From Syntrophales bacterium (GTDB lineage: Bacteria > Desulfobacterota > Syntrophia > Syntrophales > UBA8958), in contig JAOACW010000005.1 in NCBI GenBank assembly GCA_026417625.1, positions 1 to 64,000 on the forward strand: 64,000 nt of DNA, written 5' to 3'. Both the position numbers and the translations under genes were made by a program. The notes under the pieces are model-generated. The model saw nothing but the letters and a program-made list of their open reading frames with translations, did no database searches and was not told where the DNA came from. Positions within the stretch are counted from its first letter, which is position 1. Every line of letters starts with the position of its first letter. Below are positions 37,950-41,502 of the stretch, piece after piece.

Positions 37950-39632
37950 TTACTGCGTCATCACGTAGCGCTGCTCTTCTTTTGGTACATACCACTTGAT
38001 GAAGTTGTGCATAATACCTTGTGGAGCTGGTTCCACACCACGGAAGCGTTTGTGGACAATCGGTAATGCGTCAGGTATGAAAAGGAAAAGATAAGGTTGT
38101 TCTTCCGCGAGGATCTCCTGGATGCGATTGTAATAGAGTTTTCTCTTTTTCTGGTCAAAAGTGCTGCGCCCTTTCTCTATAAGTTCATCCACCTCTCTGT
38201 TTCGAAAGGAAATGAAATTAAGTTCGTATGGTCCGGTTTTACTTGAGTGCCACACATCAAAAAGATCAGGGTCAGGTGGTATTGTCCAGCCCAGTATGAC
38301 GGCGTCGAATTTTCTCTTCCCAATAAAGTCGTTCACCAATGCGGCCCACTCAAGAACTCTTATCTTTACTGCAATGCCCACCTCACCAAGGCGTTTCTGA
38401 ATTATTTCTGCACATTTGATTCGGACCTCGTTTCCCTGGTTTGTTATTATTTCAAACTCAAAAGGCTTCCCATTTTTATCCAGAATACCGTCACCGTTTG
38501 TATCAACCCAACCTGCTTTTGCTAAGAGTTCTCTTGCTTTTGTTGGATCGTAAGGGTATCGTTTTACATCTGGATTGTATGCCCACATATCTGGTTTGTA
38601 AGGACCAGTTGCTTCGTGGCCCAAACCTAACAGAACTCCTTGAATTATCTCTTCTTTGTTTATAGCGTGAGCTATGGCCTGTCTAACAGTTCTGTCTTTG
38701 AAGAGAGGATTTTGAAGGTTATAGCCTAGGTATACGTATGAAGAAGACAGATATCGGTACTTGTTGAAATTTTTTCTAAAAAGATTGTTTTCGGTTTGTC
38801 TGCGATACTGGAGTGGAGTGAGGCCCATTTGGTCTATGCCATTTGCCCTCAGTTCAAGGAACATCGTTGCAGAATCGGGAATCACCCTCATTACGTATCC
38901 ATCTATATACGGTCTACCCTCAAAGTAGTCTTTGTTTGAGGAAAGAACTATTTTCTGTCCTCCAACCCACTGCTTGAAGCAGTACGGTCCTGTTCCAATG
39001 GGATGTCTTGCCAGGGGGGATGTTGTTATATCTTTACCTTCTAGAAGATGTTTGGGTAAGATGGAAATGTTCCAGCTCATAAGGGCAGGTGCGAAGGGTT
39101 TTTCATAAGTCACACGGAATGTGTAGTCGTCTAACGCTTCAGCCCTCTTAACTTTTTGGAAATCACCTGCGTATGGAGTGGGTGTGGATGGATCTGTCAA
39201 AAGCTTGTATGTGAAAAGTGCGTCCTGGGCTGTTAAAGGATACCCATCGTGCCATCTTACGTTTTTTCTTAGGTGGAATGTTATCGTTAATCCATTCTTT
39301 GATATATTCCAGGATTCAGCTAGATCCCCTACAATATTGAGATTTTTGTCGTATTTGACAAGGCCGTTGTAAATGAGACCAGCGATTTGATGAGATGTGC
39401 TATCGGATGCCAGTATGGGGATAAGATTAGTAGCGTCTCCGAGTGAACCAACTACGATTAAATCACCGTATGCTGGTGAAAATTCAGTGACAATTTTTTC
39501 ATTTTGGGTTTTTTCTGGAGCACCACATGAAATGGTGATTGAAAAAATAAGTAGCATAATGAAAAAGATGTGTTTTTTGTATGTTGATATTTCTGTGTTC
39601 ACGCTTTGAAGAAACTTATTGCCGAAAGTCAT
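37950..39632 (-). CDS. Peptide/oligopeptide-binding lipoprotein (solute-binding family 5), orphan
   Basis: The product is about 560 residues with a signal sequence ending in a lipobox (SITISCG) and the SBP family 5 fold: NLIPILASDSTSHQIAGLIYNGLV, LTFHLRKNVRWHDGYPLTAQDALFTY-type region, GTGPYCFKQW and DPTKARELLAKAGW. No ABC permease or ATPase is nearby. The first 20 residues before the hydrophobic core are long for a lipoprotein signal, so the start may be further downstream. It is divergent from cimA. Confidence 0.9.
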   Translation of the reverse strand: MTFGNKFLQSVNTEISTYKKHIFFIMLLIFSITISCGAPEKTQNEKIVTEFSPAYGDLIVVGSLGDATNLIPILASDSTSHQIAGLIYNGLVKYDKNLNIVGDLAESWNISKNGLTITFHLRKNVRWHDGYPLTAQDALFTYKLLTDPSTPTPYAGDFQKVKRAEALDDYTFRVTYEKPFAPALMSWNISILPKHLLEGKDITTSPLARHPIGTGPYCFKQWVGGQKIVLSSNKDYFEGRPYIDGYVMRVIPDSATMFLELRANGIDQMGLTPLQYRRQTENNLFRKNFNKYRYLSSSYVYLGYNLQNPLFKDRTVRQAIAHAINKEEIIQGVLLGLGHEATGPYKPDMWAYNPDVKRYPYDPTKARELLAKAGWVDTNGDGILDKNGKPFEFEIITNQGNEVRIKCAEIIQKRLGEVGIAVKIRVLEWAALVNDFIGKRKFDAVILGWTIPPDPDLFDVWHSSKTGPYELNFISFRNREVDELIEKGRSTFDQKKRKLYYNRIQEILAEEQPYLFLFIPDALPIVHKRFRGVEPAPQGIMHNFIKWYVPKEEQRYVMTQ

Positions 39633-39716: not shown

Positions 39717-39745
39717 TTGACAATGCCTTTATTTTTTTATATAAG
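39717..39745 (+). promoter_or_regulatory. sigma-70-type promoter for the cimA attenuator
   Basis: A perfect TTGACA (39717-39722) with 17-bp spacer and TATAAG (39740-39745) form the best-matched promoter in the window. Transcription should begin near 39752, 17 nt before the leader-peptide ATG. Confidence 0.85.
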
Positions 39746-39768
39746 TTAGCACCAGTAAGAATTAGACT

Positions 39769-39849
39769 ATGCGTTATTTTACGATTTCCATAATGATTTG
39801 CGGGTGCATAATTAGGCCACAAAATAGGGGGCCTGATGAGGCGCGATAG
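39769..39849 (+). CDS. Isoleucine leader peptide of cimA (26 codons)
   Basis: The frame ATG 39769 to TAG 39849 encodes 26 residues with isoleucine at codons 6, 8, 10, 14 and 15. Five Ile in ten codons is far above expectation. The frame lies between the promoter and the terminator, and its last two Ile codons (ATA ATT, 39808-39813) overlap the start of the first strand of the protector hairpin, where a stalled ribosome would act. The ribosome binding site is weak (TAAGAA). Confidence 0.8.
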   Translation: MRYFTISIMICGCIIRPQNRGPDEAR

Positions 39850-39908
39850 TGTTCTTTTTTAGAATATAAAGATCCGCCGTCAGGCCCTTCCTGGCGGCGG
39901 ATCTTTTT
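39812..39908 (+). promoter_or_regulatory. Ile-responsive transcription attenuator (protector, antiterminator, terminator)
   Basis: Three alternative pairings are visible. Strand 1 TTAGGCC (39812-39818) pairs with strand 2 GGCCTGA (39830-39836). Strand 2 CCTGAT plus GGCG (39832-39837, 39840-39843) pairs instead with strand 3 CGCCGTCAGG (39875-39884). Strand 3, within AAGATCCGCCG (39869-39879), pairs with CGGCGGATCTT (39895-39905), giving an 11-bp terminator stem with T-run to 39908. A ribosome stalled on Ile codons covers strand 1, which frees strand 2 to block the terminator. Confidence 0.85.
39869..39908 (+). terminator. attenuator terminator hairpin before cimA
   Basis: Perfect 11-bp stem AAGATCCGCCG/CGGCGGATCTT with an inner CAGG/CCTG pairing and a TTTTT tract, ending directly before the cimA AGGAGG. 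Its position only makes sense as a conditional terminator. Confidence 0.92.
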
Positions 39909-39921
39909 AGGAGGTATGCCT

Positions 39922-41502
39922 ATGTCATTCGATGTGATAGTCTATGACACAACACTACGAGATGGGACGCAGGGTGAATCCATCAGTTTTACTGCGGAAG
40001 AAAAACTGAGAATTGCGTGTTTTTTGGATGAACTTGGATTCCATTACATTGAAGGGGGTTGGCCAGGATCGAACCCAAAAGATGCCCGATTCTTCGAAAT
40101 GGCAAAAACCGTCCATTTTAAGAACGCAAAATTAACAGCATTTGGAAGTACAAGAAGATCCGATTTGAGCGTGCATGATTGCCCCAATATAAGAGCTTTA
40201 CTAGCTGCGGAAACTCCTACGGTTACCATTTTTGGAAAAACGTGGGATCTTCATGTAACAGAGGTCCTTAATGTTTCTTTAGACGAGAATATAAGGATGA
40301 TTCGAGAAACGGTAACTTTTCTCAAGGACAGGGGAAAGGAAGTCATCTATGATGCAGAGCATTTTTTTGATGGGTTTAAAGAAAATCCTTCTTATGCTGA
40401 GAAAACTATCATAACCGCTTTGGAAGCTGGTGCGGATATGATTGTGCTGTGCGATACCAATGGTGGAAGTCTTCCCTATGAAGTGGAGGACATTGTGAGA
40501 AAGGTAAAAGAAATTGTTCCGTGCAAAAAACTTGGAATACACGCCCATAATGATGGAGGTCTGGCTGTTGCGAATACGTTAACTGCGGTACTTTGCGGCG
40601 CAAGTATGGTTCAGGGGACGGTTAATGGGTACGGAGAAAGGTGTGGTAATGCGGATATCATTTCAGTAATTGCTAATTTGCAGTTGAAAATGGGAAAACG
40701 ATGTCTTTCAGATGATGCACTGTCGAAACTCACGAAATTGTCAAATTTCGTGAGTGACATTGCGAATGTACCACCACTGAACTCACGGCCTTTTGTGGGT
40801 AAGAGTGCTTTTGCGCATAAAGGTGGAGTTCATGTGAGTGCTATAATAAAGAACAGACGGGCATATGAACACATTGACCCCCGTTTGGTGGGTAACATGC
40901 AAAGGGTTATTGTTTCTGATCTTTCTGGTAAGAGCAACATTGAGTACAAAGCAAAGGAATTGGGTATTGATTTAGGATCCAATAGTGATTTGAGTAGAAA
41001 AATTGTGGAGGAAATTAAAAAGTTGGAAGACGAAGGTTTTTCTTTCGATGCTGCTGATGGTTCTCTTTCCTTGCTCGTTAAAAAACTGGCTGGTCAATTT
41101 AGAGAGCCTTTTACGTTGGAACGTTTCAGCGTGATTTCTTCAAAAACAGCCAACCACCCATCGCATGCTCAGGCTGTGATTAAAATTTCTGTTGGTGATG
41201 AGGAAGAATTAACCGCGGCGGAGGGGAATGGGCCAATAAATGCCCTGGACAATGCTTTGAGGAAAGCTCTTTTAAAATTCTATCCAAGACTGAAAGAGAT
41301 GCATCTGACAGATTTTAAGGTTCGCATCGTTGAAGGGAGCGAGGGGACAGCTGCAAAGGTACAAGTATCTATTGAGTCACAGGATGGTGAAGAAACCTGG
41401 AGCACCATAGGGGTTTCTGAAAACATTATAGAGGCAAGTTGGTTTGCCTTGGTGGATAGTATACATTACAAATTGGAAAAAGATGAGCGGAAAAAGGTTT
41501 GA
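39922..41502 (+). CDS. cimA: (R)-citramalate synthase
   Basis: The 526-residue member of the LeuA/CimA family condenses pyruvate with acetyl-CoA to citramalate, the threonine-independent route to isoleucine. Motifs: DTTLRDGTQGESISFT, IEGGWPGSNPKD, LCDTNGGSLP, HAHNDGGLAVANTL and a C-terminal LeuA-type regulatory domain (SLLVKKLAGQF..). The CimA-specific GGWPGSNPKD separates it from LeuA. The ATG 39922 lies 7 bp after AGGAGG; ATG 39916 is too close. The upstream Ile leader supports the assignment independently. Confidence 0.95.
   Translation: MSFDVIVYDTTLRDGTQGESISFTAEEKLRIACFLDELGFHYIEGGWPGSNPKDARFFEMAKTVHFKNAKLTAFGSTRRSDLSVHDCPNIRALLAAETPTVTIFGKTWDLHVTEVLNVSLDENIRMIRETVTFLKDRGKEVIYDAEHFFDGFKENPSYAEKTIITALEAGADMIVLCDTNGGSLPYEVEDIVRKVKEIVPCKKLGIHAHNDGGLAVANTLTAVLCGASMVQGTVNGYGERCGNADIISVIANLQLKMGKRCLSDDALSKLTKLSNFVSDIANVPPLNSRPFVGKSAFAHKGGVHVSAIIKNRRAYEHIDPRLVGNMQRVIVSDLSGKSNIEYKAKELGIDLGSNSDLSRKIVEEIKKLEDEGFSFDAADGSLSLLVKKLAGQFREPFTLERFSVISSKTANHPSHAQAVIKISVGDEEELTAAEGNGPINALDNALRKALLKFYPRLKEMHLTDFKVRIVEGSEGTAAKVQVSIESQDGEETWSTIGVSENIIEASWFALVDSIHYKLEKDERKKV
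40728..40755 (+). repeat. perfect 12-bp inverted repeat inside cimA
   Basis: ACTCACGAAATT (40728-40739) and AATTTCGTGAGT (40744-40755) flank a 4-nt loop within the cimA coding sequence. No T-run follows. Confidence 0.85.

Follow-up and report, generated by a model that had tools for sequence, protein, structure and literature searches.

A candidate isoleucine-sensing leader-peptide attenuator upstream of the citramalate synthase gene cimA in Syntrophales

Introduction

Transcription attenuation by leader peptides is a classical form of bacterial gene control, of which the enterobacterial ilv operons (ilvL/ilvGMEDA and ilvB) provide examples. Vitreschak et al. (2004; cited in PMC1262725) reportedly treated the leader-peptide attenuators of ilv operons. 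In attenuation of the trp type, the ribosome covers about 15 nt and kinetics decide the outcome.

Several leaders of related design have been described outside enterobacteria. The ilvB-II and ilvB-OMG motifs comprise an upstream open reading frame (uORF) with many branched-chain codons followed by an intrinsic terminator, and ilvB-OMG as well as the Leptospira ilvB motif have been reinterpreted as uORFs (PMC10272879). Candidate leaders with runs of Ile, Val and Leu codons and a terminator precede ilvB in Actinobacteria, and codon substitution in the Streptomyces coelicolor ilvB leader was without effect (PMC1262725). Leaders of ilvB have also been described in Corynebacterium. A histidine leader peptide is known for hisS-family genes of bacilli (PMC2965389).

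We analysed here the region upstream of cimA, encoding citramalate synthase, in a Syntrophales bacterium (the source genome), using a window of 64,000 nucleotides, i.e., the whole stretch of DNA to which the coordinates below refer. Like the enterobacterial ilv attenuators, the cimA leader combines an ORF rich in the product amino acid with a protector, an antiterminator and a terminator that share strands, a stalled ribosome being the predicted sensor. It differs from them in that its target is the threonine-independent entry to isoleucine and in using Ile codons only; we claim no common leader sequence. The ilvB-II and ilvB-OMG motifs likewise place a branched-chain-codon uORF ahead of an intrinsic terminator, but they lie before ilvB and carry mixed branched-chain codons, whereas the cimA leaders carry Ile codons and match no Rfam family. 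The actinobacterial ilvB leaders share the branched-chain codon runs and the terminator but differ in phylum and gene. The hisS-family leader also consists of a leader peptide and a premature terminator found by comparison, but it senses histidine and belongs to Firmicutes. A literature search with partial coverage of subscription papers retrieved no report linking citramalate synthase to a leader-peptide attenuator, in line with a remark in the preliminary description of this DNA. The cimA leader is a known type of attenuator on an unusual gene target, by which cimA joins the known targets of classical attenuation; we consider the finding real and its interpretation supported.

Results

The leader region of cimA

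All features lie on the forward strand; the helices were obtained by folding and the other elements were read from the sequence.

39717..39745, + strand: promoter, TTGACA (39717-39722), 17-nt spacer, TATAAG (39740-39745)
39769..39849, + strand: leader peptide ORF of 26 codons, MRYFTISIMICGCIIRPQNRGPDEAR*, with Ile at codons 6, 8, 10, 14 and 15
39808..39813, + strand: control codons Ile14-Ile15 (ATA ATT), near-invariant as ATAATT in relatives, where most columns are at least 90% conserved (alignment A1)
39811..39818, + strand: strand 1, 5' arm of the protector, pairing with 39830-39837 (-11.5 kcal/mol for the segment)
39828..39847, + strand: strand 2, partner of strand 1 (protector) or of strand 3 (antiterminator)
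39850..39867, + strand: spacer containing a small 7-bp hairpin
39868..39884, + strand: strand 3, 5' arm of the terminator, also used by the antiterminator (39872-39888)
39890..39906, + strand: strand 4, 3' arm of the terminator
39910..39914, + strand: GGAGG, Shine-Dalgarno sequence of cimA, about 4 nt past the terminator stem
39922..41502, + strand: cimA, citramalate synthase (TIGR00977 citramal_synth, 740 bits, cut-off 450)

Both the promoter and the 26-codon frame with its five Ile codons had been proposed in the preliminary description, and each part named there is present within 39717-39921. The exact TTGACA was present on the 5' side of 29 of the 34 homologous leaders, with a spacer of 17 nt in most of them. 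An in-frame TAG (39763) stands shortly 5' of the leader ORF, whose stop codon is at 39847 and whose Shine-Dalgarno sequence is weak in the source genome. For cimA itself, ATG 39922 is more likely to be the start than ATG 39916 because its spacing to GGAGG fits better. The neighbouring gene on the 5' side (37950-39632) is encoded on the opposite strand, and the hairpin of the leader is therefore not its terminator.

Mutually exclusive helices

The terminator (39868-39884 with 39890-39906) folded as 17 bp with -30.9 kcal/mol and the antiterminator (39828-39847 with 39872-39888) as 17 bp including small bulges. Since the segment 39872-39884 is common to both, the two helices exclude each other. 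The three helices of the preliminary description were thus all recovered, although with other extents: the protector (given as 39812-39818 with 39830-39836) folded as 39811-39818 with 39830-39837, the antiterminator (39832-39843 with 39875-39884) had been drawn too short, and the terminator (39869-39905, followed by a T-run) is longer than the 11 bp first assigned. The longer helices leave the logic of mutual exclusion through strands 2 and 3 unchanged. The T-run after the stem consists of five T (39904-39908), the first of which are paired.

The fold of leader and terminator was more stable than dinucleotide shuffles (z = -5.3, none of 200 shuffles being as stable), and the complementarity between the leader and the 5' terminator arm amounted to -29.4 kcal/mol (shuffle mean -16.7, sd 2.8, none of 2000 as strong). 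The homologous leaders share ancestry, so that shuffle counts overstate independence and the pair counts among relatives reported below do not represent independent events.

We then folded the leader with the bases covered by a ribosome masked, a check that had been recommended beforehand. Starting from 39827, as with a stalled ribosome, the antiterminator formed as long as strand 4 was absent or incomplete (up to about 39897), after which the terminator took over, as is needed for a competition during transcription, while the segment left free by a ribosome at the stop codon folded only into the terminator. The untranslated full leader folded as protector plus terminator. These outcomes matched the expectation of antiterminator upon stalling and terminator upon completion. 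At equilibrium the terminator was more stable than the antiterminator, and read-through must therefore depend on kinetics, which also holds for other attenuators. In the alignment, 18 nt separate the end of the last control codon from strand 2, and the stop codon begins 15 nt into strand 2; the geometry of the source leader is that of the classical trp scheme.

Proposed mechanism

The locus unites an Ile-rich leader ORF, an intrinsic terminator, an exclusive antiterminator, a protector beside the control codons and a suitably placed stop codon. It is very probably a transcription attenuator of the classical ribosome-mediated (trp) type, with charged isoleucine tRNA as its signal and cimA as its target. 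When Ile-tRNA is ample, the ribosome would read the leader through to the stop codon (39847) and cover strand 2, so that strands 3 and 4 would form the terminator and RNA polymerase would stop near 39908. Under a shortage of Ile-tRNA, the ribosome would wait at Ile14-Ile15, covering strand 1 and leaving strand 2 free; strand 2 would then pair with strand 3 ahead of the synthesis of strand 4, and RNA polymerase would continue into cimA. If the leader is not translated at all, the protector would form and the terminator would follow. The opening of cimA by a stalled ribosome that frees strand 2 had been postulated in the preliminary description; the folds agree with it, as do the comparisons described below. 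The parts, their exclusivity and conservation, the Ile excess and the link to cimA are observed, and from them we infer that the leader is translated, that transcription ends near 39908 and that the switch responds to isoleucine.

Conservation within Syntrophales

We searched for cimA in 60 related genomes and in public genomes and read the DNA upstream of it. The leaders of the order were closely alike, with an in-frame Ile run, the near-invariant ATAATTAG, strand 2 as GGCCTGATnnTGG and a terminator made of CCGTTATCAGG with CTGATAACGG. A covariance model was built from the aligned leaders (34 sequences in the alignment, 20 others being held out). Its top match in the source genome was the cimA leader; the next-best matches there, a terminator after the apparent end of mnmA and unrelated DNA, were rejected as a second leader of the cimA type. 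The model matched 129 of 149 sampled genomes of the order, covering 48 of 53 genera, many of them absent from model building. Where cimA was matched in full in a genome of the order, the leader match lay 3-184 nt upstream of the gene in 48 of 50 cases.

Both helices were preserved by the 34 leaders. The 14 modelled pairs of the terminator were 94% paired, six of them with double (compensatory) changes, against 29-48% in controls in which the partner was slid by one to three bases; the antiterminator was 90% paired, with three pairs showing compensatory changes, against 28-50% in the slid controls. The 20 held-out sequences gave similar values (93% for the terminator and 90% for the antiterminator). 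The protector was recognised by eye in the relatives, its register shifting between families. Relative to the first base of strand 2, the leader stop codon was at -11 to +15 nt in 34/34 leaders, a position from which a finishing ribosome would mask strand 2. Loss of the Ile codons or of the pairings in relatives, the outcome named in advance as speaking against an attenuator, was looked for; the in-frame Ile codons and the covarying exclusive helices were kept. In one relative (locus L100, genome G035), the promoter was followed almost at once by the cimA terminator and no leader ORF lay between them, so that the sensor is naturally deleted. Near the cimA of another relative we observed an Rfam fluoride riboswitch (L097:4310-4371).

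The comparison also bears on whether the hairpin acts mainly by hindering ribosome entry at the cimA Shine-Dalgarno sequence, in a translational or mixed attenuation, and not on transcription. The source genome alone might suggest this, its T-run being short and its model match standing 3 nt from cimA. However, the T-run counted 6-9 T in nearly all relatives (8-9 in most), and the distance from the match to cimA was usually 20-40 nt and up to 184 nt, as suits a terminator but not a hairpin that occludes the start. We therefore regard translational or mixed attenuation as improbable, although part of the control in the source genome could act on translation start, since its terminator with five T stands right before the Shine-Dalgarno sequence of cimA.

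Isoleucine codons of the leader

The source-genome leader has 5/25 Ile (binomial p about 0.04), which is weak evidence taken singly, and this number of Ile codons is lower than in most relatives. Across the 34 homologous leaders, Ile made up 263 of 887 codons (29.7%), compared to 6.7% in the cimA genes, while the shifted frames of the same leaders contained only 4.5% and 1.2% Ile. Leu and Val were each rarer in the leaders than in the cimA genes. For each leader we chose, among the reasonable frames across the core, the one richest in Ile, which gives a small upward bias for Ile; the excess is larger than this choice of frame could produce. Judged from the codons, the evidence is mild for the single ORF and overwhelming once the relatives are added. 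Leader peptides from the order include MKLNTIIGIIIIGIIRPDNTGA, MITIIIRPIIIIEGIILVSKT and MIRNIVSIIRPIIIIIIQDTSG, and between close relatives the differences consist of entire Ile codons, as expected if the frame is translated. The share of ATA among Ile codons was 25% in the leaders vs 11% in the cimA genes; we dropped the idea of a special role for this codon, which is also common (37%) in the long frames of the window.

Because the RNA is conserved in sequence in the region of strands 1 to 3, it could be taken for a ligand-binding riboswitch or a T-box acting on the same terminator, the short ORF being incidental. The leaders, however, matched no Rfam family at gathering thresholds, T-box and riboswitches included, and gave nothing meaningful at permissive ones, nor was ilvB-OMG or any other branched-chain leader among their Rfam matches. 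Moreover, an aptamer does not need an Ile excess confined to one frame, and the leader ORFs of sister orders change their codons along with the pathway. Such a regulator is highly improbable. A chance association between a plain intergenic terminator and an unrelated short ORF, to which the mildly unusual Ile count of the source ORF would be no obstacle, has a negligible probability given the order-wide conservation, the compensatory changes, the 30% Ile and an upstream gene that faces away and needs no terminator there, and is refuted by the comparative data.

The same core before other genes

Beyond the order, the covariance model matched 37 of 297 genomes in a sample of the phylum. Nearly all of the loci examined in this sample preceded cimA, ilvB or ilvD, two preceded a leuA-like gene, and one match (L172) had no branched-chain gene downstream. 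Many genomes of the order gave a second match, and most of those that we read precede ilvB. The attenuator core was thus recovered before ilvD (L153, L154, L157, L160, L164, L170 and L190), leuA (L159 and L162) and ilvB (L174-L178 and L180-L189).

The codon content of the leaders varied between these groups. The cimA leaders of the order contained 31% Ile, 2% Val and 5% Leu, and those of other orders of the phylum (L007, L008, L010, L011, L013, L017, L027, L156, L161, L163 and L165-L169) contained 17% Ile, 11% Val and 22% Leu. The peptide encoded by the latter is longer and conserved, follows the pattern IIVIISATGI..SLLLLLLVVRLK.PGLIMT and mixes Ile, Leu and Val. Outside the order, Ile, Val and Leu amounted to 22, 13 and 17% in the ilvD leaders and to 13, 23 and 13% in the two leuA leaders.

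The family behind the cimA leader is order-wide and probably phylum-wide. We lean slightly towards a scenario in which one core (strand 2 CCTGATAATGG against strand 3 CCGTTATCAGG) is common to cimA, ilvB, ilvD and leuA throughout the phylum, its specificity being retuned by swaps of leader codons while the RNA switch stayed fixed, and the cimA copy of the order being narrowed from Ile/Leu/Val to Ile alone. Together, the Ile leaders of cimA, the Val leader of ilvB in the source genome (see below) and the mixed Ile/Leu/Val leaders of ilvD and leuA in other orders form a series in which changes of attenuator specificity can be studied.

The branched-chain pathway in the source genome

The source genome contains an ilvB-N-C-D operon (G000:C1:129982-134934, loci L193 and L197). 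The leader of ilvB, MAMGTPSCGIVNVVVVRRGTAAR, is Val-rich (GIVNVVVV), with GTA for every Val codon, and is followed on its 3' side by its own antiterminator/terminator pair and then by a second inverted repeat. In this genome, the choice of leader codon follows the pathway, Ile for cimA and Val for ilvB.

No threonine deaminase was found in the source genome, the weak matches corresponding on inspection to a fused cysteine synthase and to a protein resembling TrpB. The genes leuC, leuD and leuB are present as a leuCDB operon, before which we saw no leader, and no leuA scored above the family cut-off. Since leuC and leuB are present and threonine deaminase was not found, cimA appears to provide the entry to the isoleucine pathway, and citramalate appears to be the only such entry in this genome, the assembly being 97.8% complete so that a gap is possible. 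The leuCDB operon may serve the citramalate route only, in which case the source organism is possibly a leucine auxotroph, or leuA may have been lost in an assembly gap. The leader is independent support for annotating cimA as a gene of isoleucine synthesis. It also provides direct sequence evidence on how anaerobic, largely uncultured bacteria would control the route from pyruvate via citramalate by which they appear to make isoleucine. At G000:C3:152400 (locus L195), a single frame of about 777 codons joins a cysteine synthase to a cysteinyl-tRNA synthetase.
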